The position numbers were made by a program, and so were the translations under genes. The notes under the pieces are model-generated. The model worked only from the letters and a program-made list of their open reading frames with translations. It was not told where the DNA came from and ran no database searches. DNA of 22,450 bases, taken from the IMG/VR virus record IMGVR_UViG_3300035661_000348, positions 1 through 22,450 of that record; one strand, written 5' to 3'. Below are positions 926 through 18,530 of the stretch, one piece after another (within the stretch, counting starts at the first letter, position 1; each line of letters starts with the position of its first letter). Source of the DNA: a virus.

Positions 926-967
926 ATGTGTCATCTCCATTGTAAAGTGTTAGTAATGAAAGCATAG

Positions 968-983
968 AATAAATATATGTTTG
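968..983 (-). promoter_or_regulatory. Phage-type TATATTA promoter P1, upstream of gyrB-like gene
   Basis: On the minus strand this reads CAAACATATATTTATT, 43 bases before the gyrB start. It is one of eight similar elements in the window, all pointing at a gene. The seventh core base is T rather than A, so it is a slightly weaker match. Confidence 0.55.
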
Positions 984-1010
984 TTTCAAACATTAACTCT
1001 TTGTGAAAAA

Positions 1011-1038
1011 AGAAAAGAATGATGACTCATTCTTTTCT
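1011..1038 (-). terminator. Rho-independent terminator of the Rha-like gene
   Basis: AGAAAAGAATGA (1011-1022) pairs perfectly with 1027-1038 around a 4-base loop. On the minus strand a run of six T follows the stem directly. It sits 15 bases after the Rha-like stop codon. Confidence 0.85.
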
Positions 1039-1052
1039 GTAAGACTTAGTTA

Positions 1053-1508
1053 TCAGTCTTGTTCAAACTCGTCTTCAATAAGTACTTTGTTAGCTTCCCT
1101 TTCTGCTTCAAGTTGAATTTCTGCCTCTAGAGCTTTTTGAATCCACTCAATTCTAGACAAGGGCTTTTGAGATTCCTTAGCTTTTCGCTCATGCTCTAGC
1201 CATGCTTGATTGATGATATGTCTGTGCTCAATAGAGTAACCCGTGATTAAGTCTAGAACTGCATCGCGGGAAAGAAAGAAGTATTTATTACTTTTCTCAC
1301 TTTTGTCTTTGTAAGTCGTTGATTTCATAAGATCGTCCGGTTTTTCGGGTGAGTGATTTTCGTACTTTTTGTCGTAGAAGTCCTTAAGGACTTCACAGTC
1401 AACTAGAACATGGTCGTGTCGTTTACTACAAAGTTCAGCGATTTGAAGTGAACTCATATAGTCATTGCCTTCAATAGCAACAATAAACGAAACTGATGAT
1501 TCAAACAT
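1053..1508 (-). CDS. Rha-family phage regulatory protein
   Basis: The 151-residue protein carries the hallmark Rha pattern: SSLQIAELCSKRHDHVLVD at residues 19-37 (compare the family's S..IAE.TGK.H.hVlrdI) and YFFLSRDAVLDLITGYS at 76-92 (compare Y.L.rd....l.tGY). A charged, coiled-coil-like helix at 119-145 ends the protein. Rha proteins (Phage_pRha family) are DNA-binding regulators or antirepressor-like factors of phages; the target here is unknown. The start is supported by GAGGA 7-8 bases upstream. The gene is a single unit with its own promoter at 1575-1591 and its own terminator. Family assignment is by motif recognition; a regulatory role is inferred from the family. Confidence 0.8.
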   Translation of the reverse strand: MFESSVSFIVAIEGNDYMSSLQIAELCSKRHDHVLVDCEVLKDFYDKKYENHSPEKPDDLMKSTTYKDKSEKSNKYFFLSRDAVLDLITGYSIEHRHIINQAWLEHERKAKESQKPLSRIEWIQKALEAEIQLEAEREANKVLIEDEFEQD

Positions 1509-1543
1509 GATACATTCCTCGTGTAAAAATTAATGAAGCGGTT

Positions 1544-1573
1544 CATGCCTTAGAAGATATCTCCTAAGGCATG
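1544..1573 (-). repeat. Leader hairpin between promoter P2 and the Rha-like gene
   Basis: CATGCCTTAG (1544-1553) pairs with CTAAGGCATG (1564-1573), with the palindrome GATATC in the loop. It would form at the very 5' end of the Rha-like transcript, just after promoter P2. It could stabilise the RNA or be an operator; no U-tract follows, so termination is less likely. Confidence 0.5.
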
Positions 1574-1574
1574 G

Positions 1575-1591
1575 AATTAATATATGCTTAA
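1575..1591 (-). promoter_or_regulatory. Phage-type TATATTA promoter P2, upstream of the Rha-like gene
   Basis: On the minus strand it reads TTAAGCATATATTAATT, 67 bases before the Rha-like start. Its core is part of a 10-base inverted repeat (AATATATGCT at 1579-1588, AGCATATATT at 1596-1605). A second copy of the core therefore points the other way, and the repeat sits just after the preceding gene's stop. Confidence 0.6.
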
Positions 1592-1610
1592 AACTAGCAT
1601 ATATTCTTTA

Positions 1611-1928
1611 TCAATCTAGTACTTCAATCAATTCTCCTTCTGCAAATGCCATAAGAATTTGAAGGGAAATGTCTTCAATAGTCATTTCTTCATCACTCCA
1701 GTCATAATCACCTGTAAACACACTTGAAATAAAGACGTTCTCTCGTTTAAAGAACTTTACGCCAATGTCGGTGTTTCCAATTACATTTCCTGCTAGCAAT
1801 TGGTTCAGTACTAGTTGTTCTGATTCAGGATTACTTGTTACAGAGTCAACTGCTTCTTTAGGAGTGAGACCATATGTGTCTAATGAAAAATCTTCAGACG
1901 CGTTTAAAGCTAAATTTACGATTTTCAT
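1611..1928 (-). CDS. Hypothetical acidic protein, 105 residues
   Basis: I do not recognise this protein. It begins MKIVNLALNASEDFSL and is rich in Asp and Glu, especially in the last third (WSDEEMTIEDISLQ). No membrane segment or catalytic motif is visible. Its start codon overlaps the stop of the upstream membrane-protein gene by four bases (ATGA), which indicates translational coupling in a two-gene unit read from promoter P3. AAAGGA lies eight bases before the ATG. The inverted repeat at 1579-1605 follows directly and may end the transcript. Confidence 0.75.
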   Translation of the reverse strand: MKIVNLALNASEDFSLDTYGLTPKEAVDSVTSNPESEQLVLNQLLAGNVIGNTDIGVKFFKRENVFISSVFTGDYDWSDEEMTIEDISLQILMAFAEGELIEVLD

Positions 1929-2311
1929 GATTTAATTCCTTTAGGGGTTATTACAAAGTTACTTTCGTCTAATTGAAACCATCTCCAAGCTCCAATTAGA
2001 CTGATTGATAAATTCGGGTCAACTTCTCTTATTGAGTAATAATGATTCTCCTCTAATAGTTTACAGACACTTTTAATAGCTCTCTCTTTGAACAGATCGC
2101 AGTCAATATTTTCTAATCCTGCTTTCATTGCACTTGTAAAGCAAAACATCTTATCGCTATAATGGCAATTAAGTACTAGAATGATTTGTTTCCTTAGCTT
2201 CTTCTTTTTAAAGAACTCTTGAAGCTGAGGATAGACTAAAAGATATCCTGTTAAGTGAACTGACAAGATTAAAAGTAAGCCTGTGACGACAACGAGATTT
2301 AATAGTTCCAT
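1925..2311 (-). CDS. Small membrane-anchored protein, 128 residues
   Basis: I chose the ATG at 2311, which has AGGAG 11 bases upstream; a GTG ten codons earlier is in frame, but the AGGAG would then lie inside the gene. The protein opens with one strong hydrophobic stretch (residues about 3-27, LLNLVVVTGLLLILSVHL). A basic patch, FFKKKKLRKQ, follows, which by the positive-inside rule suggests the rest is cytoplasmic. The soluble part holds four Cys and ends FVITPKGIKS, which loosely recalls the end of winged-helix domains but is not enough to assign one. It is the first gene of a pair, overlapping the next gene by ATGA. Function unknown. Confidence 0.72.
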   Translation of the reverse strand: MELLNLVVVTGLLLILSVHLTGYLLVYPQLQEFFKKKKLRKQIILVLNCHYSDKMFCFTSAMKAGLENIDCDLFKERAIKSVCKLLEENHYYSIREVDPNLSISLIGAWRWFQLDESNFVITPKGIKS

Positions 2312-2343
2312 TGATTTGTAAACTCCTATAGTAGATAACACGT

Positions 2344-2359
2344 AATTAATATATGCTTG
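2344..2359 (-). promoter_or_regulatory. Phage-type TATATTA promoter P3, upstream of the membrane-protein pair
   Basis: On the minus strand it reads CAAGCATATATTAATT, 33 bases before the start at 2311. It directly follows the U-tract of the preceding terminator, so one unit ends exactly where the next begins. Confidence 0.65.
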
Positions 2360-2360
2360 A

Positions 2361-2387
2361 AAAAAAGGAGAACTTGCGCCCTCCTTC
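2361..2387 (-). terminator. Rho-independent terminator of the 66-codon gene
   Basis: On the minus strand AAGGAG pairs with CTCCTT across a 10-base loop, and a run of seven or more T follows. It lies just after the stop of the 66-codon gene. A second short hairpin (GTGTTAGG with CCTAACAC) overlaps that stop codon. Confidence 0.75.
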
Positions 2388-2393
2388 TTCGTG

Positions 2394-2594
2394 TTAGGCT
2401 TTAACCCCTAACACTGTAGAAGACACAAACTCTGCTAGAGCAGAGTTTGCATCATCCAAGTCACTGACTGGGTATCGCGTTTCGATCGCTACACCTTTGC
2501 GGAAATCCTCCAAATTTTTCGAGGCTGCGCGAACAGCTTCTACTAGATCCAGAAGGGTTGCCGATTTTTCGCCGGAGAAAAGGATTTCTACCAT
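2394..2594 (-). CDS. Hypothetical protein, 66 residues
   Basis: This short gene has the strongest ribosome-binding site of the region, GGAGGTG six bases or so before its ATG, a promoter-like element at 2658-2672 and a good terminator, so it is very probably real and well expressed. The product (MVEILFSGEKSATLLDLVEA...) is predicted mainly helical and acidic, with no Cys, membrane segment or known motif. Its coding stretch looks richer in G and C than its neighbours (many GCG, CGC and TCC codons), which may mean recent gain. I do not recognise it. Confidence 0.7.
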   Translation of the reverse strand: MVEILFSGEKSATLLDLVEAVRAASKNLEDFRKGVAIETRYPVSDLDDANSALAEFVSSTVLGVKA

Positions 2595-2657
2595 GATACA
2601 CCTCCATAAAGTAAAAGAAGTCTTACACCTCGAAAGGGATGCTTCTATGTATCACCT

Positions 2658-2672
2658 AAATAATGTATGTTT
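2658..2672 (-). promoter_or_regulatory. Variant phage-type promoter P4, upstream of the 66-codon gene
   Basis: On the minus strand it reads AAACATACATTATTT, 64 bases before the start. It differs from the other copies by C for T inside the core (TACATTA), so it is the least certain of the set. Confidence 0.45.
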
Positions 2673-2689
2673 ATTTCTAACGAATCCGT

Positions 2690-2723
2690 AAAAAAAGTTA
2701 AGAGCTGTTTAGGCTCTTAACTT
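2690..2723 (-). terminator. Rho-independent terminator of the three-gene operon 4836-2739
   Basis: AAGTTAAGAGC (2695-2705) pairs with GCTCTTAACTT (2713-2723) around a 7-base loop, and a run of T follows on the minus strand. A smaller hairpin (2732-2750) overlaps the stop codon of the last gene. Confidence 0.85.
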
Positions 2724-2738
2724 TATAGTTTAAAGAGC

Positions 2739-3074
2739 TTATAGCTCTTTGTATTCAGGACGACGTTTAACTTTAAGATCAATACGGAATGTACTTTTAT
2801 TGCGAGAGACAGTGTAAACGTTTCTTACTTGGTTAGGACGGTCAAGATAAAAGTCACAAACAGATTTATCTTCTTTACAACTTGACAATGCAACTTTGTC
2901 TAAAGGTAAATTGATGAATCCTTCATTGACTAAGTAGTTTTGCATTTCAACACTTACTCCTTGCTGAGTAAAATCGCTTAAGCAAGGAAGAACTCCTACT
3001 TGAGCTGGTTCAGCGTGTAAGACCATTGAAAATGCAATTAACGCAGTGCAAATAAGGGGATGTGTATATTTCAT
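2739..3074 (-). CDS. Secreted small protein with Sec signal peptide
   Basis: I chose the ATG at 3074 (MKYTHPLICTALIAFS...), which has GGAG nine bases upstream, rather than an ATG five codons earlier that precedes that site. The first 20 or so residues form a typical signal peptide: a Lys, a hydrophobic core LICTALIAFSMVL, and a probable cleavage after HAEPA-like small residues. The mature part of about 90 residues has three Cys in CLSDF, SSCKED and VCDFY, so a disulfide is possible, and a basic C-terminus (FRIDLKVKRRPEYKEL). It would act outside the cytoplasm, perhaps in envelope modification or exclusion; this is inference. It is the last gene of an operon, 35 bases after the nucleotidyltransferase. 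Confidence 0.72.
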   Translation of the reverse strand: MKYTHPLICTALIAFSMVLHAEPAQVGVLPCLSDFTQQGVSVEMQNYLVNEGFINLPLDKVALSSCKEDKSVCDFYLDRPNQVRNVYTVSRNKSTFRIDLKVKRRPEYKEL

Positions 3075-3109
3075 AACGTAATACTCCATAACGGGTTAAA
3101 GATAATCTA

Positions 3110-3877
3110 CTAAAGAGATGCTTTAGTTACTGCAGCAAAGTATCGTTTAGTAGCTTCATGAAACAATCCTCGTCTTAAAAGGATTTGGTTTGTTTCGTCT
3201 ATAGTGCAATTAAGCTCTGAGAGAAGCTTATTTGTTCGGTTTGTTAGACGTAACGATTTAAACGGAAAGAACGTACTTGCTTTGATGACAATTTTACGTG
3301 CTAATAGATCGCAATAGTCAGAATATCGCATAGCTGTTTTACACTCATGAATGTCACTAATTGATGAAGCATTCATGTTAAGTGTAATGTCCCAATTTTG
3401 AACTAGATCAGTAATTTCTGGAATCAGATTTCCTTTGTACGATATTAAGATAATGTCAATAGAATGATTACCAATTGTAAACTTAAAGTTGAAGAAGTTG
3501 GTTGAGTCCTTAAATTTAGTAAAGATCTCAAAATGTTTAGTTATTACATTTACAGAGTTGAAAGATGTTTCATTGTTTTTTAGTTGATGAATGTATGATT
3601 GAAATTGTTTAAAGAACTGTTCAAACGTAAGAGATGTAAAGATGAAGAAATCTAAATCTTTAGACTTCTTTGTTTTAGCTTCAGACAGACTATTAAGAAT
3701 AGCATCTCTTAAGCTTCCACCTGACAAAAACATTTTATAAGAAGCTGAATCAAATGCTTTTTGCAGGTGTGATTCAAACGAAAAGATTTCCTGAGGGATT
3801 ACTGGATAGAACTCTTTATCAAGTTGTAAAGTAACCATTTCAACTTTGTCAGCGTTAAGCCATTTAGTAGTTTTCAT
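3110..3877 (-). CDS. Nucleotidyltransferase of the poly(A) polymerase / CCA-adding enzyme fold
   Basis: The start at 3877 is set by AAAGGAG five bases upstream; an ATG six codons earlier overlaps the preceding gene and has no such site. The 255-residue product shows the class-II pol-beta layout: FLSGGSLRD at residues 50-58 (the GGxxRD nucleotide-binding turn), KDLDFFIF at 73-80 with the metal pair Asp74 and Asp76, a third acidic residue in HSIDIILIS (Asp141), and NWDITLNMNA at 161-170, matching the RRDFTINAL motif of tRNA nucleotidyltransferases. Such enzymes add nucleotides to RNA 3' ends or to other acceptors. It is short for a full CCA enzyme, and the substrate is unknown. It is the middle gene of a three-gene operon. 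Confidence 0.75.
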   Translation of the reverse strand: MKTTKWLNADKVEMVTLQLDKEFYPVIPQEIFSFESHLQKAFDSASYKMFLSGGSLRDAILNSLSEAKTKKSKDLDFFIFTSLTFEQFFKQFQSYIHQLKNNETSFNSVNVITKHFEIFTKFKDSTNFFNFKFTIGNHSIDIILISYKGNLIPEITDLVQNWDITLNMNASSISDIHECKTAMRYSDYCDLLARKIVIKASTFFPFKSLRLTNRTNKLLSELNCTIDETNQILLRRGLFHEATKRYFAAVTKASL

Positions 3878-3891
3878 AGTTTCTCCTTTCA

Positions 3892-4836
3892 TCAATGGAT
3901 CATAGCAGGTTGAATTTTAGCATTAATAGGAAGTAAACCAAATGTCATGCTCTTAGAGCAAACATAGATGTACTTCTCACTTTTATCCCAGACCATGATG
4001 GTTTCTTTGAATGCATCATTGTTAAAGTCAGATAATGTAGAACTATCAATAAGTGTAAACTCATCAGACGGATTAGTTGAATTAAAGATTTGCTTCTTAG
4101 AAACAATAAGTGTAGTGTTAGAGTTCTCTTTCATTAGAAAACCTCCATTGATTTTGAGTTCTTTAGATTCAGGATTTGGAATGAAAGATACTAATACAGT
4201 TTCTTCAGAGATAGTAATATTTGAACGTTTAGCTCTTAAGTTTGCTATTTTAGAGATGAATAGATAAGCACTTTCTACTCTAAGAGGTTGATGGGGTCTA
4301 ACCAAGTTAACAGTTTGTTCTTTTTCATCCTGAAAGTAAGGTTCTTTGAAAGAGACTTCATTTAAGACTTCTTCAAATGAAAGAGTGGAATCAATCGTAG
4401 TTAGAGTTAAACTGAAGCTATGAATAAAGTCTTCAATGTCTTCCCTATCTTTAATTCCAATGTTTCCAAAGAACGAGTCTAAGACTATGAAGAACTTAGA
4501 CTTTTCAGCTGAAAGGTTTTCTACTTTAAAGACTTGATCCAACTTGTAGTTGCTTAGTATTTCATAGATACTGGAGTCTGATAGAATGATATCTGTTGAA
4601 GAATCAAATTGCATAGACTCCGTAGGAACTTCAAGCATAGAAAATAGACTTGATGTTCTAAACCGAGTATCAGTTTGACTGATGATTTCGAATTTAAAGT
4701 AAACATAGTCTAGACTAGAATGTTTATCTAGTTCTTCTTGAGTAACTTCATAGTTTAGCATCAATGCTAAGCTTTTAGTTTCTTCAAGATAAGAGTAAGC
4801 TGGACTGGATAACTTTAAGTTGATGATGTTTTCCAT
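3892..4836 (-). CDS. Hypothetical protein, 314 residues, first gene of the nucleotidyltransferase operon
   Basis: I do not recognise this protein. It starts MENIINLKLSSPAYSYLEET, with GAGGA about ten bases upstream and promoter P5 at 4868-4884. No membrane segment, zinc-binding cluster or nucleotide-binding motif is visible. The composition is rich in Ser, Phe, Glu and Asp, with alternating strands and helices suggested throughout and many SSS/DSS stretches. The gene ends 14 bases before the nucleotidyltransferase start, so the two are probably co-translated; a joint role, such as partner or substrate-binding subunit, is possible but not shown. Confidence 0.78.
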   Translation of the reverse strand: MENIINLKLSSPAYSYLEETKSLALMLNYEVTQEELDKHSSLDYVYFKFEIISQTDTRFRTSSLFSMLEVPTESMQFDSSTDIILSDSSIYEILSNYKLDQVFKVENLSAEKSKFFIVLDSFFGNIGIKDREDIEDFIHSFSLTLTTIDSTLSFEEVLNEVSFKEPYFQDEKEQTVNLVRPHQPLRVESAYLFISKIANLRAKRSNITISEETVLVSFIPNPESKELKINGGFLMKENSNTTLIVSKKQIFNSTNPSDEFTLIDSSTLSDFNNDAFKETIMVWDKSEKYIYVCSKSMTFGLLPINAKIQPAMIH

Positions 4837-4867
4837 AGTTCTTTATTCCTCAGGGTTAAGAGACATT

Positions 4868-4884
4868 ATATTAATATATACTCT
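4868..4884 (-). promoter_or_regulatory. Phage-type TATATTA promoter P5, upstream of the three-gene operon
   Basis: On the minus strand it reads AGAGTATATATTAATAT, 32 bases before the start at 4836. The TATATTAAT core is perfect but the upstream CAAAC part is not conserved. Confidence 0.6.
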
Positions 4885-5030
4885 AAAAGTTTATCAATTG
4901 TTAAGTCAAACACTTTAAGTTAGTTTAAGGACATTTACTCTTAAACACAACTATGGTTGGTGATTTAGGATTGCTGAAAAGCATTCATTGAGTTGCTCCA
5001 TTTAGGTTGATTGAAAAGGGTTAATTTTTA

Positions 5031-5060
5031 AGTCTAGGTTCGTAAGAGCCTAGACTCTTT
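5031..5060 (+). terminator. Hairpin with U-tract in the non-coding region
   Basis: AGTCTAGG (5031-5038) pairs with CCTAGACT (5049-5056) around a 10-base loop, and CTTTTT follows on the plus strand. There is no plus-strand gene before it, so it may end an unannotated small RNA or shield promoter P5 from readthrough. Confidence 0.45.
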
Positions 5061-5101
5061 TTATGTGAAGTTTTAGAGATTTGAAGTTTACTATGTCTGA
5101 A

Positions 5102-5169
5102 TTCATAAAAATGTTAAGTGAAAAATTCGATTTTTGAAAACTCAATTTCCGAACTAACATTTTTATGAA
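5102..5169. repeat. 15-base inverted repeat enclosing a second hairpin
   Basis: TTCATAAAAATGTTA (5102-5116) is the exact reverse complement of 5155-5169. Between the arms lies a second short stem, AAAAAT-TCG-ATTTTT (near 5121-5135). Both lie outside any gene. Confidence 0.7.
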
Positions 5170-5188
5170 GTTACTAGTTGAATGAAAA

Positions 5189-5221
5189 ATAGAAAGAGTT
5201 ATTAGATTAAACTCTTTCTAT
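5189..5221 (-). terminator. Terminator of the membrane protein gene at 5229-5774
   Basis: ATAGAAAGAGTT (5189-5200) pairs with AACTCTTTCTAT (5210-5221) around a 9-base loop. On the minus strand it is followed by ATTTTTC. It begins eight bases after the stop codon. Confidence 0.75.
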
Positions 5222-5228
5222 TATCTAT

Positions 5229-5774
5229 CTATGAATTAGTGTTATCTAATATTGACTTTAAAGAATTCATATAACCTTTGTCTATGTTAAGATTATATTG
5301 AATAGTTCCATTTGAATAAGAAGTTGAAATTCTATCTAATTTAAGAATGTCTGAATTATTAAACTTGAATAAAGCTATAGGTTCTGATCCAAAATTGATT
5401 TCATTAGCAACTAACATTCTATTAAGTTCTAATTCAAACTGAGTATAACCTTCCATAGTTTCAAAAGAGAACTTAGAATTATAATCCTTATGATTACTTA
5501 AACAAGCTATCATGATAGTCTTTAGATTATTGAAACTAAATATTTCTGAACCACAAGAGATACAGAAGATTGGACTAAATTCTCTATCATAAAACATGAA
5601 TACATAAGAATCTTTAAGCTTTCCATCGTTGATTAAATCAAAGTACTTTGCTATAGAGAATATTGCAATCTCAGTAGTTTTAAGTTCTTCAACTTTAGGT
5701 TTACTAATTAGAATAAAGGTCATTACTAAATGAAAGAATACAGGAAACAAGATAATAAGCATTACATAAAACAT
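5229..5774 (-). CDS. Membrane-anchored hypothetical protein, 181 residues
   Basis: The first 24 residues (MFYVMLIILFPVFFHLVMTFILI) form one uncut hydrophobic helix with no signal-peptidase site, so the protein is probably anchored by its N-terminus. A soluble part of about 155 residues follows, with one CxxC pair (FCISCG) and an otherwise unrecognised sequence. AGGAG lies nine bases before the ATG. It is a single gene with its own promoter (P6) and terminator. It resembles the 128-residue protein at 1925-2311 only in plan (anchor plus small soluble domain), not in sequence. Function unknown; interference with host membrane processes is a guess. Confidence 0.75.
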   Translation of the reverse strand: MFYVMLIILFPVFFHLVMTFILISKPKVEELKTTEIAIFSIAKYFDLINDGKLKDSYVFMFYDREFSPIFCISCGSEIFSFNNLKTIMIACLSNHKDYNSKFSFETMEGYTQFELELNRMLVANEINFGSEPIALFKFNNSDILKLDRISTSYSNGTIQYNLNIDKGYMNSLKSILDNTNS

Positions 5775-5827
5775 AATTATAGACTCCTAACAAATTGATA
5801 AATGATGATTGATGCTTGCTATAAGCA

Positions 5828-5847
5828 TTAAACTAATATATATTTGA
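5828..5847 (-). promoter_or_regulatory. Phage-type TATATTA promoter P6 (minus half of a mirror pair)
   Basis: On the minus strand it reads TCAAATATATATTAGTTTAA, 54 bases before the start at 5774. It matches P7 on the other strand at nearly every position over 23 bases, so the two are back-to-back divergent promoters. Confidence 0.65.
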
Positions 5848-5856
5848 TAAATTCTT

Positions 5857-5875
5857 CAAACATATATTAGTTTAA
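5857..5875 (+). promoter_or_regulatory. Phage-type TATATTA promoter P7 (plus half of a mirror pair)
   Basis: It reads CAAACATATATTAGTTTAA, 29 bases before the RNAP beta-like gene. With P8 it defines the consensus best. Confidence 0.7.
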
Positions 5876-5903
5876 TGTCTTAGAACCTACAATAGGAAAT
5901 GCT

Positions 5904-7346
5904 ATGTTAAAAACAAACTTGATGTACTCAATGCTTTCTGAGCAAGAAATAGATAGACCTATTTCCCTTCTCCCTAATCCAGATGTTTACAATTCTAAAA
6001 TCATGGAATTCATCCATAAGGCTTGTCAAACTCTAGAATACTTAAATCTAAAGCTAGAAAGTCAAGGTAAGAAACTAGTTGAAGTTGTTTCAATTAAGCA
6101 AGCTCCGTTTTCGTTTACTGCTACTACTTCAGAAATTGAAGACTCTCTAGTTAGAGAAGTTGTAATTACGTTTAAGTTCTATGATGAAGCTGATCAAGAA
6201 TTGACTGCAACTGTTCCATTAACGTTAAACATTCCATTCGCTAATCAACAAGGTATGTTAAAGTTAAATGGTGTTGTCTATGCTCCTGTGTATCAGCTTT
6301 TAGATAAAGCCATGTTTAAGATCAAAGAAGATCGAATTCTTCTTAAGAATCTTCTAATGCCTTTAGAAATGAAGAAGATAATAGTTAAACAAACTGCAGC
6401 TAAGCTAGATCCTTACTATCCAATTAGGATGAACTTCTTATCATCTAAATTCAACCCATTCATTTTCAGTCCAATCGAATTTCCAGCTTATTGTGAGTTC
6501 TTTGGTGTTAATTTGCTTACCGATCTAAGCTATTCTGATAATTATGCAACTGTTCAAAACAAAGAAGACTATCATGCGTATGCTATTACTAAGAAGAGAG
6601 TGATGCTCTTAAAGAAATCTCCACTAGCTAACCGAAACATTCTAGATACGTTAGCTGATTTTATCTTAACTTACAAGCTTTACAAGCGGGATATGTTTGA
6701 AGTTGGTTTGATGGAAGAACTTAAACAAGCTTCGTTTAAGAAGCGCTATAGAAGTACTCTTGTATCATTGCAGAGAACGTTAGACCCTATTACTTATAAC
6801 TCTCTTAACAACATTCATCCTGACGATAAACAAACTGTCAATCATTTACTTCGTTACATCATTTACTTCTTTGATCATTTACTACTAAATGACCCTGTTG
6901 ATCTCAAGTATAAACGTATAAGACTTGAAGAGTATTCTATCTTACCCTTAATCAACAAATTCAGTGAAATCTCTTATCGTTTATTGAATACCAACCAACC
7001 AATAAAGCTAGAAAAGCTAAAAACTATCTTTTCTGCAATTCCTAAAAACTTCATCCAATCTAAGATGATATCTGAAGGAATTGTTAGAGCTGTAGACTGT
7101 TCATCTGGTTTAAGTGTGTTTAACTTCATTCGCTTTACTCATGGAATGAGTTCTATGCTTTCTAAAAAGTATCGTAACCAACATGAATCGTTTCTTGGAA
7201 ATATTGCGCTTATGGAAGCTTCTGCATCTGATCCCGGCGCTTCTGGTAACTTTGTTCCCTATATGGAAGATTTAGTTGATTCATATTTCTTCTCTACTGA
7301 GATCGATTATCAAATTCCTGAAAGCTTCCCTAAAACCCTTAACTAA
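5904..7346 (+). CDS. Probable N-terminal half of a phage multisubunit RNA polymerase beta subunit
   Basis: The 480-residue protein has two landmarks of bacterial RpoB in the right order. Residues 106-135 (LTLNIPFANQQGMLKLNGVVYAPVYQLLDK) match the beta pattern P-L-M...G-T-F-I-N-G...R-V-I-V-Q-L. Near the end, FIRFTHGMSSMLSKKYRN followed by ASASDPGASGNFVPY (about 439-453) matches the fork region R-R-I-S-A-L-G...R-D-V-H...Y-G-R-I-C-P. The chain stops shortly after this point, where phiKZ-type phages also split beta between genes. If correct, it forms the protrusion/lobe/fork part of a phage RNA polymerase and needs a separate C-terminal beta gene outside this window. AGGA precedes the ATG by six bases. 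The identification rests on motif order only. Confidence 0.55.
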   Translation: MLKTNLMYSMLSEQEIDRPISLLPNPDVYNSKIMEFIHKACQTLEYLNLKLESQGKKLVEVVSIKQAPFSFTATTSEIEDSLVREVVITFKFYDEADQELTATVPLTLNIPFANQQGMLKLNGVVYAPVYQLLDKAMFKIKEDRILLKNLLMPLEMKKIIVKQTAAKLDPYYPIRMNFLSSKFNPFIFSPIEFPAYCEFFGVNLLTDLSYSDNYATVQNKEDYHAYAITKKRVMLLKKSPLANRNILDTLADFILTYKLYKRDMFEVGLMEELKQASFKKRYRSTLVSLQRTLDPITYNSLNNIHPDDKQTVNHLLRYIIYFFDHLLLNDPVDLKYKRIRLEEYSILPLINKFSEISYRLLNTNQPIKLEKLKTIFSAIPKNFIQSKMISEGIVRAVDCSSGLSVFNFIRFTHGMSSMLSKKYRNQHESFLGNIALMEASASDPGASGNFVPYMEDLVDSYFFSTEIDYQIPESFPKTLN

Positions 7347-7357
7347 ACAACCTAACA

Positions 7358-7383
7358 AACTATGACAGAAATCTGTCATAGTT
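7358..7383 (+). terminator. Hairpin after the RNAP beta-like gene
   Basis: AACTATGACAG (7358-7368) pairs perfectly with CTGTCATAGTT (7373-7383) around AAAT. No strong U-tract follows, so it may be a weak terminator or RNA-processing site between this gene and the next, which begins 27 bases later. Confidence 0.6.
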
Positions 7384-7410
7384 CTATTAACCCCACTAAG
7401 AGTAACTTTT

Positions 7411-8586
7411 ATGAAAACCACAAGTGTCAAATTTGTAAATCTGAAAACTTTGCAAACAGCAGTAGATAAGTTTAATGAGCTAAACAAAAACATACCTGCT
7501 TTCATCAAATACGTTCAAGATGAAGTATACCATGTAGACAAACCTCTTAGCTGCTTTCTCCCAGTTGAGCATTACTTAGCACTCAAATCAAATGGCTTAC
7601 TAGAGTCTTTGACTTTAGAACCGTCATATCTGCTTCGTGATGAAAACACAGTGTTTTATCATCTTCAAGAAGTACCGTCATTTGACAATTCAACAAAGCT
7701 TGCCAACCTGTTTCACATTTACTACCTACCAATACAATCTGACGAGAAGATTTATAGCAAGAGTTCTAACCTTGAAATAGAGTATTCTAGTATTGCTAAG
7801 ACGGACTGTTACAACGGGTTAATTACTAACTTGCATTCTCTTGAAATTGTAAACAATCAAAAGCTTAATACTAAAGAGAAGGTAGTAATTACTATCCTGA
7901 ATCTATTTAATGGTAGTCAATTCTCTCCATATGGTAACTCTTTCTTCTCTTTTGTCTGTAAGATTAACACAGCTGATTTAGTCTTACCTGATTCAATTTT
8001 CATTGAAGTGAGAACTCCTTTTAGTTCAATTTTAGTAGAAATTGAAGAATCTGAAATAGAAGTCTCTCAGAATGGAATAGCTACAGTACGTGGTTGCGTT
8101 TCGTTTGACAATGGGATGGAACTTCTCTATGATCAAAATCCAACTAAATTCTCTGTTGAAAACGCATTAAACTACTCAAATCCATTAGACTATCTATTCG
8201 AAACTGAACAAGAAGCTTTGACTGGACGCTCTCTTGAAACAGCTTTAGTTAGGTTCAACCACAATGAAGAAGTGGTTAAAAACTTTGAGCTTGCATTAAT
8301 TCAAGTCTATGAAGAAATCAAAGGCTATGCGGAAAATGTAGTACCTAACTCTTATAGAATTATGGAACCGTTTTGTACTGTAAAGACACCTAGTGACGAG
8401 ATTAATGCTTTGTTAGCAGCTATGCCGTTATTCAGTGACTTTAAAGGTTTAGATTTAAGTAAAGAAGTATCAACTAAATACGGTAAACATTCTTTGATTA
8501 GTTTAGCAACTGAGATTATTATAAACGAACTGTCCGATTCATATTCGTCTGTCTTAAGTGAAGCAGGATTGACTCCTTCTAAGTAA
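7411..8586 (+). CDS. Hypothetical protein, 391 residues
   Basis: I do not recognise this protein. It begins MKTTSVKFVNLKTLQTAVDKFNELN. There are no membrane segments or clear catalytic motifs; the middle (about 120-260) looks strand-rich (SFVCKINTADLVLPDSIFIEVRTPFSSILVEIEESEIEVSQNG) and the ends look helical. It lies between the RNAP beta-like gene and the HU-like gene and has no promoter element of the TATATTA type, so it may be read through from the beta-like gene. A long hairpin follows. A virion or transcription-associated role is possible from position only. The start is the first ATG after the preceding hairpin; the ribosome-binding site (AAGAGTAA) is weak. Confidence 0.8.
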   Translation: MKTTSVKFVNLKTLQTAVDKFNELNKNIPAFIKYVQDEVYHVDKPLSCFLPVEHYLALKSNGLLESLTLEPSYLLRDENTVFYHLQEVPSFDNSTKLANLFHIYYLPIQSDEKIYSKSSNLEIEYSSIAKTDCYNGLITNLHSLEIVNNQKLNTKEKVVITILNLFNGSQFSPYGNSFFSFVCKINTADLVLPDSIFIEVRTPFSSILVEIEESEIEVSQNGIATVRGCVSFDNGMELLYDQNPTKFSVENALNYSNPLDYLFETEQEALTGRSLETALVRFNHNEEVVKNFELALIQVYEEIKGYAENVVPNSYRIMEPFCTVKTPSDEINALLAAMPLFSDFKGLDLSKEVSTKYGKHSLISLATEIIINELSDSYSSVLSEAGLTPSK

Positions 8587-8610
8587 AATAAATCTCGTTT
8601 AAACTGAAGC

Positions 8611-8648
8611 TGGAACAACAGAAGTTGAAAAGACTTTCTGTTGTTCCA
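8611..8648 (+). terminator. Strong hairpin terminator after the 391-residue protein
   Basis: TGGAACAACAGAA (8611-8623) pairs exactly with TTCTGTTGTTCCA (8636-8648), with a few more pairs inside the loop. TTTGTTTATTTTT follows within 20 bases. It isolates the HU/capsid block from what comes before. Confidence 0.75.
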
Positions 8649-8760
8649 ACCCAAGTTTGTTTATTTTTCAGCTATGGTTTGACGAAAAGTGCAAAAAGTG
8701 CAGTTTTCGCAATAACAATTTCATGAAGAAAAGGTAGTTGCTGAAAACTCATCTTCACCC

Positions 8761-8774
8761 TACTTTTATCAAAC
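8761..8774 (+). promoter_or_regulatory. Candidate late promoter word before the HU-like gene
   Basis: CCTACTTTTATCAAAC (from 8759) shares CTACTTTTAnCA with stretches 25-35 bases before the capsid and sheath genes. It is 33-46 bases before the ATG. Supported only by resemblance among three or four sites. Confidence 0.3.
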
Positions 8775-8806
8775 CTGAAAACTTAAATTGAAAGGATCTG
8801 TCACCT

Positions 8807-9265
8807 ATGGCACTCAAACCTAAAGTAACAAAAGCACAACAAGACAAAGCAGCTCAAGAAAAAGCGTTGAAAGCTCAAGAGAAAGCATTGAAAGCTCAAG
8901 AGCGTGCTGCAAAAGCTGCTGAAGCGGAAGAAGACCAAGATAACACATTTAGCGATACGTTCTATTACGAAATGAACAAGCTTGGTAGTTATACACGTCA
9001 AGATGCTACAAACGCATTGAAAGCTCTTCAAAGCGCAACTCTAGAGCATTTAGTTCAAAAAGGTCGTTGTTTAGTTAACAACGTAGGGCGTTTTGCTCTT
9101 TCTCCCCGTGATGAACGTGAAGGTGTTAATCCTCGTACTCGTGAACGTGTTCGGATTCCTGCAAGCATGGGTGTTAGCTTCCGTCCTGCAAAAGCAATGA
9201 AAGTTGCTCTAGTCGATGTTAAAGTTCCCGTTCTTGAAACATCTGAAGAAACAGTAGCAGAATAA
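8807..9265 (+). CDS. HU/IHF-like DNA-binding protein with Lys/Ala-rich N-terminal extension
   Basis: Residues about 50-137 match the HU/IHF fold: a helical pair ending ATLEHLVQKGRCLVNNVGRFALSPRDEREGVNPRTRERVRIPASMGVSFRPAKAMKVAL, with the GRF turn (94-96), the arm Arg and Asn-Pro (GVNPRTRE, 106-113; the Pro intercalates into DNA in this family) and the FRPAKAMK end of the fold. HU proteins bend and compact DNA. Residues 1-45 are a charged Ala/Lys/Glu helix of repeated AQEKALK units, absent from bacterial HU and probably a coiled coil or DNA-binding tail. AAAGGA lies about nine bases before the ATG. Heavy use of CGT codons and a position two genes before the capsid gene suggest strong, late expression, perhaps as a packaged nucleoid protein; that last point is inference. 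Confidence 0.85.
   Translation: MALKPKVTKAQQDKAAQEKALKAQEKALKAQERAAKAAEAEEDQDNTFSDTFYYEMNKLGSYTRQDATNALKALQSATLEHLVQKGRCLVNNVGRFALSPRDEREGVNPRTRERVRIPASMGVSFRPAKAMKVALVDVKVPVLETSEETVAE
8852..8914 (+). repeat. Three tandem 21-base units inside the HU-like gene
   Basis: Three units starting GCTCAAGA at 8852, 8873 and 8894 encode repeated AQEKALK heptads; a degenerate earlier unit may precede them. Unit number could vary between relatives by slippage. Confidence 0.75.
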
Positions 9266-9278
9266 ACTTTACTGTTCC

Positions 9279-9309
9279 CCTCCCTTAGCCCTACAAAGGC
9301 TAAGGGAGG
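9279..9309 (+). terminator. Hairpin after the HU-like gene
   Basis: CCTCCCTTAGCC (9279-9290) pairs with GGCTAAGGGAGG (9298-9309) around a 7-base loop. The stem is GC-rich for this genome. Only a short TCTTG follows, so termination may be partial. Confidence 0.7.
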
Positions 9310-9354
9310 TCTTGATCAATCCTTTGAATCAAGCTTAAAAGAGAGACTTACATT

Positions 9355-9924
9355 ATGTTTTCGATACTTTTAGAAAAACCCACAGCCGCACCTCCTACTG
9401 AAGGAAAACCTAAAGGAAAAGCAGATGATGCACCTCCTGACGATGCAGCAGCACCCCCTGATGATGCACCTCCTGATGATGCTGATGCACCTCCGAAAGA
9501 TGCATCATCTACTGACGATGCAGCAGCACCGATAGCCGACCCACTAAATCCAGAACCAACTGATTCGACTCCAGCTTATTCAGTTGATAGTCTTGAAGGA
9601 AAACTAAAACCTTTAGCAATCTTTAAGAAGGGAAAACGTATAAGTGGTTCTCTGTTAACGTTAGAAGAACTATTCAGTTATCACTTGTCAGCTACTTCTA
9701 CAATTCCTTTTACTGCTCCTGATCAAGAAACATTGAAAGTAATTCAAGACGATATCATTGACAAGAAAGAAAAAGTTGAAATCATTTTAACTCAGATTGA
9801 TATAGATGCTAACAATCAAGACGTTATAGACACAATATTGGATAAGATAGATGACCATATTTTAGCTCTCACAGACGGTCTAAGAAAGGTTGTTTCTAAG
9901 TATAAAATAAAGAAGCCGTCGTAA
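9355..9924 (+). CDS. Pro/Asp/Ala repeat protein next to the capsid gene, possible prohead core component
   Basis: The 189-residue protein starts MFSILLEKPTAAPPTEG. Residues 24-60 are a disordered acidic stretch of DDAPPDDAAAPPDDAPPDD repeats. From about 75 on there is an ordered domain, KLKPLAIFKKGKRISGSLLTLEELFSYHL, then a charged helix ending KVVSKYKIKKPS. I do not recognise the domain. Its place directly before the major capsid gene, its small size and its acidic, partly disordered nature resemble T4-type prohead core proteins, but this is an argument from context. AAGAGAGA lies about nine bases before the ATG. The portal protein in this window also ends in a Gly/Asp/Pro-rich tail. Confidence 0.72.
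   Translation: MFSILLEKPTAAPPTEGKPKGKADDAPPDDAAAPPDDAPPDDADAPPKDASSTDDAAAPIADPLNPEPTDSTPAYSVDSLEGKLKPLAIFKKGKRISGSLLTLEELFSYHLSATSTIPFTAPDQETLKVIQDDIIDKKEKVEIILTQIDIDANNQDVIDTILDKIDDHILALTDGLRKVVSKYKIKKPS
9424..9534 (+). repeat. Imperfect tandem repeats coding for APPDD units
   Basis: The stretch repeats GATGCACCTCCTGA-like units of 12-15 bases with small changes, giving Ala-Pro-Pro-Asp-Asp in the protein. It is a low-complexity linker likely to vary in length. Confidence 0.75.
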
Positions 9925-9951
9925 ACAAAAATTTTGAAATTGAAATCAAAA

Positions 9952-9986
9952 CAAGATCTCTAGTTACAAATGAATAGAGAGTCTTG
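9952..9986 (+). other. Imperfect hairpin before the capsid gene
   Basis: CAAGATCTCTA (9952-9962) pairs with TAGAGAGTCTTG (9975-9986) with one bulged base around a 12-base loop. It lies between the repeat-protein gene and the capsid gene; it could be a weak terminator or an RNA processing site. Confidence 0.4.
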
Positions 9987-9990
9987 CAAT

Positions 9991-10005
9991 CCTACCTTTT
10001 AACAT
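9991..10005 (+). promoter_or_regulatory. Candidate late promoter word before the major capsid gene
   Basis: CCTACCTTTTAACAT starts 34 bases before the capsid ATG. It resembles CTAACTACTTTTAACAC before the sheath gene. No TATATTA-type element is present here. Confidence 0.35.
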
Positions 10006-10024
10006 TTCATGGAAAATTTATATC

Positions 10025-11590
10025 ATGGGAATCCTCAGAAAACCTACTAAAGACAGCTTTACTGCTGCGTTAGAACGCACTAATGAACGTTTTCACTCTC
10101 GCGGTGTTAACTTGTTTGGTAACGGTCACGAAGATGTGTTGAATGAATCTGCTTATTTTGCCGAATACACTCACGATTTGCTTGAAGGTTTGAGTGAAGA
10201 CGATGCTGAAACACTAGGCATTGTTATGCAGAACTCACGTTTGCAACTCTTGACTGAAAGTTTGTCCGGTACTACACCTATTTCAAGCTTAAGTCTTCCT
10301 ATGCTGCGTAAAGCATACCCACGAATGGTCATTCCAAACACCATTCCTACGCAAGCTGCCGAGACTCCTAAGTTTACAACACCTTACATTCGTCCATACA
10401 TTATGGCAAAAGATGGCACTAAACGGTTCTTACCTGAATTGTTTTATGCACAAGATGAAGAATATGCTGGTCGTCCTAAACTGTTTAATGACTTCTTCCC
10501 AGTTGGTGCAACTAAGAATCTGATGACTACAGTAGGTATTACTACTGCTAATGGCGATTCAGTTGACGTTGACGTAATGGTTCAAGCAGTTAAAATGAAA
10601 GTCAAAAATTCTGCTGGTGCTGCTGAAGAAACTGTTACAGTTGACAAAGTCAATATAAAAATGGACTCTCGCACTAACTTGATTTCAGGTGTTGTTTCTG
10701 GTAAACATAGCACTGGTTATGTTACTAAAGATACAGTCTTTGTAGTAATTGATCGTATTACTGGTGATGCTACTCCTACTAGCCTACAAGGTTTAGTTAC
10801 TGAAGTTAAAGTTGAAGCATACGTATCAAGTGAATACAATAACTCCAACGAACAAGTTGGTTATGACATCACTACAAAAGAAACAAACATTCCTACTGGT
10901 GGTCACATTTCTGCTCCTATGAGTTCTGAATACCTGACAGACCAACTGAAAATGTTCAACGTAGACGGTATTGCTAAAGTAGTAGACATCATGTCAACTG
11001 TTTTGGGTACTCGTGTTGATACAGAAGGTTTGACTTTCTTGGATTCAACTAAAGTAGCTGGTCAGTGGGAACGTCAATTTGATATGTATCCACCTAACAC
11101 GTTTGCTGGTGTTCCATCTGATTGGCGTAGAGAGATTCGCCCTGTAATTGATAACATTGCTCAAGAGATGATCAATGCAATGCAAGTCGGTTCTTACGGT
11201 TACTTTGTTTTAGTTGGTAATCCAATTGATACAATGATCCTTCCTGACGTTGACTGGGTATTTGACCATACTGCTTCTGAACAAGCAGGTGTTCGTGTAG
11301 ATTACTCTGTGGGCGAAGCTCGTGGCGTTTATCGTTACGTCATCGTTTCTTCTGAACGTATTCTTCCGGGCAAACTCCGTATAGTATGGATTCCTATGGA
11401 AGAAGATGCTAAGACTTATATGTTCTATCCATATAGCTTTACAATGAGTAAAGGCGAAGGTAACTTGAACGTTCGTACACCAAATGTACCAGCAATCGTT
11501 GCTCATCGTCGGTATGTATTTGAGAACTTCATGGAAAGTGCTATCGGTGAAATTCGCATCATTCACAACAATGGTACGTTCCAGTACTAA
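10025..11590 (+). CDS. Major capsid protein, T4 gp23-like (HK97 fold)
   Basis: The 521-residue protein matches the T4 gp23 type: after a helical N-terminal region comes SLPMLRKAYPRMVIPNTIPTQAAETPKF (90-117), equivalent to the gp23 stretch MvRRaiPnLiafdicgvQPm..PtG, and the length equals that of gp23 (about 521). Residues 1-78 probably are a scaffold-like segment removed by a prohead protease; LTE at 76-78 followed by Ser fits the T4-type (I/L)xE cleavage rule. It forms the hexamers of the head shell. The C-terminal part (MNAMQVGSYGYFVLVGNPIDTMIL..., IRIIHNNGTFQY) fits the family. Arg is coded almost only by CGT and Gly mostly by GGT, a strong-expression bias not seen in the terminase gene. 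The transcript ends at a strong hairpin at 11614. Confidence 0.88.
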   Translation: MGILRKPTKDSFTAALERTNERFHSRGVNLFGNGHEDVLNESAYFAEYTHDLLEGLSEDDAETLGIVMQNSRLQLLTESLSGTTPISSLSLPMLRKAYPRMVIPNTIPTQAAETPKFTTPYIRPYIMAKDGTKRFLPELFYAQDEEYAGRPKLFNDFFPVGATKNLMTTVGITTANGDSVDVDVMVQAVKMKVKNSAGAAEETVTVDKVNIKMDSRTNLISGVVSGKHSTGYVTKDTVFVVIDRITGDATPTSLQGLVTEVKVEAYVSSEYNNSNEQVGYDITTKETNIPTGGHISAPMSSEYLTDQLKMFNVDGIAKVVDIMSTVLGTRVDTEGLTFLDSTKVAGQWERQFDMYPPNTFAGVPSDWRREIRPVIDNIAQEMINAMQVGSYGYFVLVGNPIDTMILPDVDWVFDHTASEQAGVRVDYSVGEARGVYRYVIVSSERILPGKLRIVWIPMEEDAKTYMFYPYSFTMSKGEGNLNVRTPNVPAIVAHRRYVFENFMESAIGEIRIIHNNGTFQY

Positions 11591-11613
11591 TTAGTCAATA
11601 CGGCTAAGTTGTA

Positions 11614-11640
11614 GTCCTATACCCTTTAAGGGTATAGGAC
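11614..11640 (+). terminator. Terminator hairpin after the major capsid gene
   Basis: GTCCTATACCCTT (11614-11626) and its exact reverse complement (11628-11640) are separated by one base. No U-tract follows. The same CCTATACC word forms the stem of the hairpin at 21239-21270. Confidence 0.75.
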
Positions 11641-11656
11641 ATAACAACGAAAGTTT

Positions 11657-11673
11657 CAAACATATATTAGTTC
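11657..11673 (+). promoter_or_regulatory. Phage-type TATATTA promoter P8
   Basis: CAAACATATATTAGTTC lies 53 bases before the start of the next gene and right after the capsid terminator. It matches P7 over 16 bases. Confidence 0.7.
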
Positions 11674-11697
11674 TTTGAAGGAGACCCCTTCAGAACT
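11669..11697 (+). other. Leader hairpin just after promoter P8
   Basis: AGTTCTTTGAAGG pairs with CCTTCAGAACT with two unpaired bases, around GAGACC. Like the hairpin after P2 it would form at the 5' end of the transcript. Confidence 0.45.
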
Positions 11698-11725: not shown

Positions 11726-12253
11726 ATGCAACAAACATTATTCAACTTAACTGAAGCAAAAGCATTTGTGGAAATTGAAGATGTTAAAGTAATGCTAAGA
11801 TCGCCTTTGAACTTTAGAATGGTAATCTCTTTAAAGAAGAGTCCTCTGTTTCAAAGCTTCTTTCAAACGTTAAATGCTACAAAGTTATTCTTTGAGTTCG
11901 TTAAAGTTTCTTTCAAAGATGAACCTTTAACGCTTTATCTGAACAAAATCTATTCTAGTGACAACTTAATGGAACGTTTTACTCTATGGAGCAACCCTCA
12001 AGTCCCTAACGAGAAAAGTGATGGTACGTTTGATTTAGTTGATCCTAGTGCTTTCTGTGAGAAAGGTCGCTTTAAAGGAAGCGACGGATACTTAGCAAAT
12101 GTTAAGAAACGAACAGTTGTAGACTGTTCTCGTTTTAATCCTACAATCAGCTATAAAAACAGAGCGGCTAAAGACTTTATCCCGGTGTATGACGCAGACA
12201 AACTTGTCTTGATTGATGACGTAGCTAAGTTCAGAGAGTACGAAGAAGACTAA
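11726..12253 (+). CDS. Hypothetical protein, 175 residues
   Basis: I do not recognise this protein. It begins MQQTLFNLTEAKAFVEIEDVKVML and holds a central part rich in Phe, Lys and Leu (LKKSPLFQSFFQTLNATKLFFEFVKVSF) and a polar C-terminus ending FREYEED. Two Cys lie at about 110 and 131. There are no membrane segments or known motifs. It is a single gene with its own TATATTA promoter, unlike the capsid gene before it, so it may be expressed at a different time. A GGAG lies about ten bases before the ATG. A hairpin at 12281 follows. Confidence 0.78.
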   Translation: MQQTLFNLTEAKAFVEIEDVKVMLRSPLNFRMVISLKKSPLFQSFFQTLNATKLFFEFVKVSFKDEPLTLYLNKIYSSDNLMERFTLWSNPQVPNEKSDGTFDLVDPSAFCEKGRFKGSDGYLANVKKRTVVDCSRFNPTISYKNRAAKDFIPVYDADKLVLIDDVAKFREYEED

Positions 12254-12607: not shown

Positions 12608-13333
12608 CTAATCTTCTTCAAGATCTGTATTTTCAGACAAATCTATTTCAGTGTCACTCCATGCAAGAAGTCTACGACTAAGAGTGAAATTGTTAAGCTC
12701 GCTTGCGCTTGCTTTAACTTTATCACTGAATAAGATACTGACTGCTTGAATGTGTTGACTAGTTAAACCTATGTTGTAGGTTTCCATGAAAGCTTTAACG
12801 TTTCCAAAAATATGTTGTGGCAAAATAACTACTTTACCACTGTGAGCTAATTGGTGGGAAGTCTTAGAAAGCGGAACTAAACCAACCATCTTTTGAAAAT
12901 GAATCTTAGTTACTTCCTCTGCTACTGAGATAGGGTTCAGAGGCTCTTTTAACATTGTTCGCTTACGTATTACAATGTCAACTATGTCAAACAAAGTAAA
13001 CGGATAATGATGTAACTCAATAGTCACGTTTTCAGTGTTTAATCCTTTCAATAAGATACATGAGTTTAAGTCTAGTTCAGTCTTTAAGAACTTGAATAAG
13101 CTCTTCAATTCAACACTTGATCTTACAATCCGTTCAATGTTTTTTACAAATCCTCGATAAGCTTTATCATCGCCACTTTCAATAAACTCATCAATCCAGT
13201 AAGAACTCTCAAACGCATTTGTCTCTTCAACAAACTCATCCAATGACACTGCTTGCTTAATTTCAAACGTAGCAGCTTTTTGAAGACCGTTCAGATCTTT
13301 CTTTTCAGTATTTTTGAAATCAGGTATTTTCAT
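12608..13333 (-). CDS. HHYPF-motif protein, paralogue 1
   Basis: The 241-residue protein is clearly related to its upstream neighbour. Shared blocks are VERIVRSS-type (68-73), IELHHYPFTLFDIV (106-118), SVAEEVTKIHF (136-146), VPLSKTSHQLAHSGKVVI (153-170) and IFGNVKAFMETY (175-186). The conserved His residues (HH, IHF, SHQLAHSG) resemble a metal or catalytic site, perhaps of a His-Me/HNH-like nuclease, but the typical HNH Asn and Cys pairs are not evident, so I give no function. The start codon overlaps the neighbour's stop (ATGA), so the two are coupled. Terminator at 12571-12598. Confidence 0.8.
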   Translation of the reverse strand: MKIPDFKNTEKKDLNGLQKAATFEIKQAVSLDEFVEETNAFESSYWIDEFIESGDDKAYRGFVKNIERIVRSSVELKSLFKFLKTELDLNSCILLKGLNTENVTIELHHYPFTLFDIVDIVIRKRTMLKEPLNPISVAEEVTKIHFQKMVGLVPLSKTSHQLAHSGKVVILPQHIFGNVKAFMETYNIGLTSQHIQAVSILFSDKVKASASELNNFTLSRRLLAWSDTEIDLSENTDLEED

Positions 13334-14079
13334 CTTACATGCTTCTCTGTAGTTTGAGGATCTTTAGCTACAATTAACGACAACTTGTCTAAGAAAGTTT
13401 TGTTGATTTGAGCGTTGTTTTTATCTTTAAACTCTGTAGGAAGGTTACTGTCATACGACAATACGTCTGTATTGTTTGTAAAGTCTATTCCATTTTTAGT
13501 CATTTCAACTAACTTCATTAGAGATTCAAAGTCATCTTCTGTTATGAAGCTTTTATAGTATTCTACAAAAGCAAAGTAGTCACCAAATACTTGGTACAGA
13601 GGGATAAAGACATTTCCGTTATGTGCTGCTTCATGTACAGTTTCAGATAACGGAACTACGCCTATAAGACCTTCAAAATGAATCTTCATTACTTCGTTAG
13701 CAACACTAAATGTAGTAATTGAAGGAACTCTACTAAACATTTCATCCATCACAATCTGAACAATGGAGTACAAACTGAACGGGTAATGATGAATTTCAAT
13801 GTCAGCATCTTCATCACTAACATTACCAAAGAACGAACAGTTTTGCATTCCTAGTTTTCGTAATGTTCCATTCCATAGTTTGTACTCCATTGAACTACGA
13901 ACTATGCGTTCAACGGTCTTGATAAACTTTATGTTCTCTTTAGGGTCAATAAACAAAGTATTTCCAAAAGAAGTTATGTAATATCCATTTCCTACAGCGC
14001 TTACAGTATTGTCTTCTTTCGATTCTTCAAATTCAATATGATCTAAACCTGATTGGTTTATGTTGTTGTCTTGTTCCAT
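13330..14079 (-). CDS. HHYPF-motif protein, paralogue 2
   Basis: The 249-residue protein is the first gene of the pair. Blocks in order are KTVERIVRSSMEYK (54-67), DIEIHHYPFSLYSIVQIV (93-110), SVANEVMKIHFEGLIGVVPLSETVHEAAHNGNVFIPL (125-161) and VFGDYFAFVEYYKS (164-177). The N-terminal 40 residues (acidic, then GNGYYITSFGNTLFID) differ from paralogue 1. The order HH, IHF, HEAAH suggests a zinc or nuclease-like centre; the function is unknown. GAGAG lies seven bases before the ATG. The intergenic region to the divergent terminase gene has no TATATTA element. The pair arose by tandem duplication and has since diverged strongly outside the blocks. Confidence 0.8.
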   Translation of the reverse strand: MEQDNNINQSGLDHIEFEESKEDNTVSAVGNGYYITSFGNTLFIDPKENIKFIKTVERIVRSSMEYKLWNGTLRKLGMQNCSFFGNVSDEDADIEIHHYPFSLYSIVQIVMDEMFSRVPSITTFSVANEVMKIHFEGLIGVVPLSETVHEAAHNGNVFIPLYQVFGDYFAFVEYYKSFITEDDFESLMKLVEMTKNGIDFTNNTDVLSYDSNLPTEFKDKNNAQINKTFLDKLSLIVAKDPQTTEKHVR

Positions 14080-14218
14080 TTAAATTCTCTCTATTAAGAT
14101 AGTAAATTAAGGATCACTTAAGTGTTTGCACATGAGTTTTAAAAACCTTGTTAGGTGCTTAAGTTTCAAATGAGTAAAGGTAAAACAATTCTTCGAATAG
14201 TAAAAGCAGGTGATCAGT

Positions 14219-18492: not shown

Positions 18493-18530
18493 TGCCACAG
18501 AAACACATTTTTGAAATTCTCTTATATTTT

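Follow-up and report, generated by a model that had tools for sequence, protein, structure and literature searches.

Eight A/T-rich elements in a fragment of viral DNA are very probably early promoters of the type found in the AR9/phiR1-37 clade of jumbo phages, read by a virion multisubunit RNA polymerase (vRNAP) from a G seven bases downstream of each element. This kind of promoter is already known from AR9 and phiR1-37, and what is new is a slightly altered set in a deeply diverged relative. The fragment, here called the window, is the 22,450-base viral record IMGVR_UViG_3300035661_000348, of which 10.7% is intergenic.

The fragment and its phage

Genes recognised in the window encode a terminase, a major capsid protein, a tail sheath, a T4-like portal and an HU-like protein, and also a GyrB-like topoisomerase fragment and the N-terminal part of the non-virion RNA polymerase beta subunit (nvRNAP beta-N). 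Judged by the sequences of its terminase, capsid and nvRNAP, the source phage is a divergent jumbo phage of the AR9/PBS1/phiR1-37 clade. The best relatives are the jumbo phages AR9, PBS1, Goe21, BpSp and phiR1-37, S6-like staphylococcal phages and Listeria LPJP1, and the gene order nvRNAP beta-N, capsid, terminase, sheath is identical in the window and in AR9, where the beta-N relative is RefSeq gp104 (gp105 in the papers). A tree of capsid sequences gives the window a long branch whose placement is weak, and its capsid is no more than 37% identical to any relative. Single-sequence searches with capsid and polymerase found no close relatives, and no vRNAP gene was recognised within the 22,450-base fragment.

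Some further features of the gene content were observed. The tail sheath (18566-20383) is short with 605 aa, resembling that of phiR1-37 (1773 bases), while the sheath genes of AR9 and BpSp span about 2960 bases. The adjacent minus-strand genes 12608-13333 and 13330-14079 belong to one uncharacterised family (phrog_12252, E 1e-52 and 3e-56) and are probably a tandem duplication; homology of the latter to AR9 gp119 found no support on comparison. For gene 3892-4836, no match was present in the phage collection. A Rha/antirepressor-like gene (1053-1508; Pfam Phage_pRha, E 1e-7) lies under a predicted early promoter in this jumbo phage.

Eight intergenic elements with a G at a fixed distance

The original prediction listed eight TATATTA elements, each pointing at a start codon. 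All eight exist on the strands given (six minus, two plus), with two coordinates to be shifted: the site placed at 5828 occupies 5831-5846, and the one placed at 4868 occupies 4869-4884. They share the consensus AA(A/G)(C/T)ATATATTA(A/G), all are fully intergenic and every one is aimed at the nearest gene start, the predicted start base lying 27-62 nt ahead of the codon. The leaders contain ribosome-binding-site-like sequence ahead of the start codon.

A scan for CAAACATATATTAGTT with up to three mismatches gave 8 matches in the window versus 0.72 expected, and 0 shuffles reached 8. Seven of these matches are sites listed before, and the eighth, at 16669-16684 (+), is a decoy inside a gene. 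The site near 4868 is more diverged (GAGTATATATTAA) and was located via TATATTA at 4872-4878 on the minus strand. In an unbiased enumeration of upstream sequence in the window, ATATATTA was the top word. The bare heptamer TATATTA barely exceeds chance (9 versus 5.0 expected in the window); the signal is carried by the longer element together with the downstream G and not by the heptamer. This enrichment was determined within the 22,450-base fragment, which covers part of the phage genome. An exact 16-mer scan of IMG/VR returned single matches on 31 scattered contigs and was treated as uninformative.

For AR9, the early consensus AAATATATATTAT-(6N)-G(+1) has been mapped by dRNA-seq and primer extension, and these promoters were assigned to the vRNAP since they are active without protein synthesis (PMC5312081). 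In the window, the 13-mer is followed by a G exactly seven bases on in 8/8 elements (background G 0.16-0.17, P ~1e-6), a position that had not been used to locate the sites. At the decoy within a gene (16670), this base is A. The same G was seen in every one of the six annotated AR9 early promoters that were examined and in most of those annotated in phiR1-37. We infer that transcription starts at this G, early in infection, and that the vRNAP is the enzyme reading these sites.

All eight elements deviate from the AR9 consensus by 1-3 mismatches over 14 specified positions. With up to three mismatches allowed, the published consensus finds 12 places in the window versus 6.1 expected, a count which alone is not decisive; eight of the places are the elements, and the other four lie in or overlap genes or are not directed at a gene close by. 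A matrix built solely from 35 AR9 sites assigns its four highest scores in the window to elements of this set, and its 13 highest include all eight. Its best window match is the 5826 element, and the 963 and 4864 elements score below some intragenic decoys. In AR9, one near-consensus site was found to be inactive (PMC5312081), which indicates that single changes can matter.

Table 1. Predicted promoters and associated features of the window (TSS, predicted transcription start)
Feature	Position	Strand	Remarks
Predicted early promoter AAACATATATTTA-TTCTAT-G	963-982	-	TSS 963, 38 nt before likely ATG 925 of type II topoisomerase large-subunit (GyrB-like) gene
Intrinsic-terminator-like hairpin	1011-1038	-	between gene 1053-1508 and promoter 963-982
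Predicted early promoter AAGCATATATTAA-TTCCAT-G	1570-1589	-	TSS 1570, 62 nt before Rha/antirepressor-like gene 1053-1508
Predicted early promoter AAGCATATATTAA-TTACGT-G	2339-2358	-	TSS 2339, 28 nt before ATG 2311
Predicted early promoter AAACATACATTAT-TTAGGT-G	2653-2672	-	TSS 2653, 59 nt before gene 2394-2594
Predicted early promoter GAGTATATATTAA-TATAAT-G	4864-4883	-	TSS 4864, 28 nt before gene 3892-4836
Predicted early promoter AAATATATATTAG-TTTAAT-G	5826-5845	-	TSS 5826, 52 nt before gene 5229-5774; one arm of divergent pair
Inverted repeat, 22 nt, 8-nt gap	5826-5877		arms span exactly from predicted TSS to predicted TSS, spacer included
Predicted early promoter AAACATATATTAG-TTTAAT-G	5858-5877	+	TSS 5877, 27 nt before nvRNAP beta-N gene; other arm of divergent pair
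nvRNAP beta-subunit N-terminal part	5904-7346	+	PHROG 2943, E 7.7e-23; AR9, 29% identity, E 3e-34
Candidate late promoter AACA-ATTTCA-T-G	8714-8725	+	82 nt before HU-like gene 8807-9265; weaker evidence than early set
Candidate late promoter AACA-N7-G	10001-10012	+	13 nt before major capsid gene; tentative
Major capsid protein	10025-11590	+	best matches AR9/phiR1-37 clade, 35-37% identity at most
Predicted early promoter AAACATATATTAG-TTCTTT-G	11658-11677	+	TSS 11677, 49 nt before gene 11726-12253, between major capsid and terminase genes
Candidate late promoter AACA-CTTAAG-T-G	14115-14126	-	36 nt before gene 13330-14079; tentative
Candidate late promoter AACA-N7-G	14184-14195	+	15 nt before terminase gene; tentative
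Terminase large subunit	14210-16228	+	42% identity to Bacillus phage Goe21 (best match)
Candidate late promoter AACA-CATTTT-T-G	18502-18513	+	53 nt before tail sheath gene; tentative

The start positions bear on the genes behind them. Gene 1925-2341 is listed with a GTG start at 2341, upstream of the predicted transcription start at 2339; since this start base falls inside the listed reading frame, translation probably begins at ATG 2311. Genes 3892-4836, 3110-3895 and 2739-3089 form a probable operon. The leaders at 1547-1570 (-) and 11677-11691 (+) appear by eye to fold into a hairpin from the first base onwards (GCCTTAG...CTAAGGC and GAAGG...CCTTC), perhaps for protection of the 5' end.

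The divergent pair at 5826-5877 predicts two starts 51 bases apart which fire outwards, and its inverted repeat points to a recent copying event or gene conversion. Since even the spacer is identical in both arms, as if copied, the elements could also be regarded as a dispersed repeat, or as sites for a phage regulator or replication protein, rather than as promoters. We consider this very unlikely, because the spacers vary at the other sites and the G is nevertheless kept in 8/8, all elements are aimed at genes at a leader-like distance, and their counterparts in AR9 and phiR1-37 have been confirmed as promoters by RNA sequencing (PMC5312081, PMC4848604). A second inverted arrangement lies in the long non-coding stretch 4837-5228, where AACATTTTTATG occurs twice facing outwards, at 5104-5115 (-) and 5156-5167 (+); it may represent paired late promoters or a hairpin.

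Comparison with known promoters and a changed base at -7

The original prediction described the elements as resembling phiKZ early promoters and as lacking a -35 box. The latter holds, as no conserved -35 column was found among the eight sites. Regarding the former, the elements are best explained as being of a phiKZ-related kind when checked against a mapped consensus, but the closer match is to the AR9/phiR1-37 branch with its 13-mer, six-base spacer and G(+1), and not to phiKZ proper (TATATTAC). The early promoters of phiKZ (TATATTAC), OBP, 201phi2-1, EL and N1M2 have in common with the window a TATATTA core, are phage-specific and precede early genes; these phages are, however, more distant and their promoters have another flanking consensus (PMC7058600). 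As to the reader of the elements, a phage-encoded polymerase or a sigma-like factor had been proposed. Here, the predicted reader is a multisubunit virion RNA polymerase, and nothing points to a sigma-like factor.

Like the early vRNAP promoters of AR9 and PBS1, the elements of the window consist of an A/T-rich 13-mer, a 6-base spacer and a start G, have no -35 box and lie upstream of early genes. The conserved A-dU-rich promoters of the Yersinia phage phiR1-37 share the core, the spacing and the G. The likeness includes the genes served: nvRNAP beta-N is an early gene in AR9 and is directly preceded by such an element in the window, phiR1-37 has an annotated promoter right before its beta-N homologue and another after the major capsid gene, and BpSp has a matching element 109 nt ahead of its own beta-N gene. 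Gene 11726-12253 was considered as a homologue of phiR1-37 g136, both following the capsid gene with a promoter ahead, and no similarity was found. In whole-record counts, ARNATATATTADN6G occurs 11-33 times in the named relatives versus 0-4 times for the reversed control. A/T-rich clade members have many early elements and four members of 48-65% G+C hardly any; in these four, searching de novo for an early motif in its place yielded only T-runs, ribosome-binding-site-like words or composition words.

Within this common layout, the window differs from AR9 at several positions. At -16, T is found in 33/35 AR9 sites and C in 6/8 window sites, and the window elements have T at -6 and at -1 in 8/8. 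A further difference concerns -7, where 35/35 close-consensus AR9 sites (122/129 of loosely matched ones) carry T and 7/8 window sites carry A or G; with T in only 1/8 elements, P is ~1e-7 to 2e-7. The T is also kept in phiR1-37 (107/112 loosely matched sites). The sites of both reference sets were selected for resembling a consensus that has T at -7, which brings some bias to T, although the contrast is large. This T is the last base of the published AR9 element, and we regard the change as a phage-varying base preference, a difference of lineage, and do not take it as family-defining.

The same position bears on the possibility that the elements are promoters of the extended -10 type for the host sigma-70 polymerase. 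An A/T-rich hexamer is indeed centred near -10. However, a -35 box is not conserved, and with +1 at the G, positions -12 to -7 read TATTAG, TATTAA, TATTTA or CATTAT; a host -10 box is disfavoured since T at -7 is missing in 7/8 sites. Furthermore, sigma-70-like sites show no excess in the window (56 versus 64 in shuffles), and this explanation appears highly improbable.

The late motif and a proposed transcription cascade

A trace of the AR9 late motif AACA-(6N)-T(A/G) can be seen in the window. Intergenic AACA-N7-G occurs 17 times versus 4.9 expected, the strongest excess among 15 spacings, and 2/17 of these sites are early elements. As many patterns were tried on 2.4 kb, this is moderate evidence and subsidiary to the early set. 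Among the relatives, the spacing peak at six is seen in nearly all that were examined, the four clade members of 48-65% G+C included. Upstream of phiR1-37 genes (NC_016163.1), the spacing of six was counted 62 times versus a mean of 18.9 at other spacings, and G follows the start A in 41/54. By sequence, the resulting consensus AACA-N6-TAG is probably a late promoter of phiR1-37, a phage for which none is reported in PMC5312081 and PMC4848604. The clade-wide signal suggests a wider conservation of late promoter recognition than the cited studies report.

The overlap between both motifs raises the question whether the eight elements are themselves late promoters of the non-virion polymerase. 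AACA is present in four of the eight, the stretch 970-981 reads AACA-TATATT-T-A, a perfect match to the AR9 late motif, and two further elements read AACA-N7-G. On the contrary, the other four have no AACA, the long ATATATTA core together with the early-spaced +1 G is exclusive to the early class, and structural genes have AACA sites of their own without this core. A late class for the eight elements is thus most improbable. A double purpose in this lineage, by which the virion polymerase would start from the G and the nvRNAP would later start about seven bases upstream, is unlikely as well, if somewhat less so. C at -16 combined with a purine at -7 creates the signature AACA-N7-R in 3/8 sites, including the one before nvRNAP beta-N. 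Nevertheless, the -7 purine is also found in sites lacking AACA, and C at -16 also follows AG. Since each change occurs without the AACA signature, the two are not coupled, which argues against the double purpose.

With the elements read as early promoters, the following cascade can be proposed. A virion-packaged multisubunit RNA polymerase would enter the cell with the DNA, recognise the A/T-rich 13-mer (about -19 to -7) with no -35 box involved, and start at the G seven bases downstream of it. This would switch on an early block comprising the topoisomerase subunit, the Rha-like regulator, uncharacterised genes and nvRNAP beta-N. Transcription of the structural genes may then pass to the non-virion polymerase, which would use separate promoters of the AACA type.

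The eight elements yield exact predictions of start sites, namely 963, 1570, 2339, 2653, 4864, 5826, 5877 and 11677. By 2017, no vRNAP of the AR9-type group had yet been purified (PMC5312081). Here, the changed base at -7 represents a natural variant for studying DNA recognition by virion polymerases, and the promoter layout of AR9 and phiR1-37 would extend to a deeply diverged jumbo phage.
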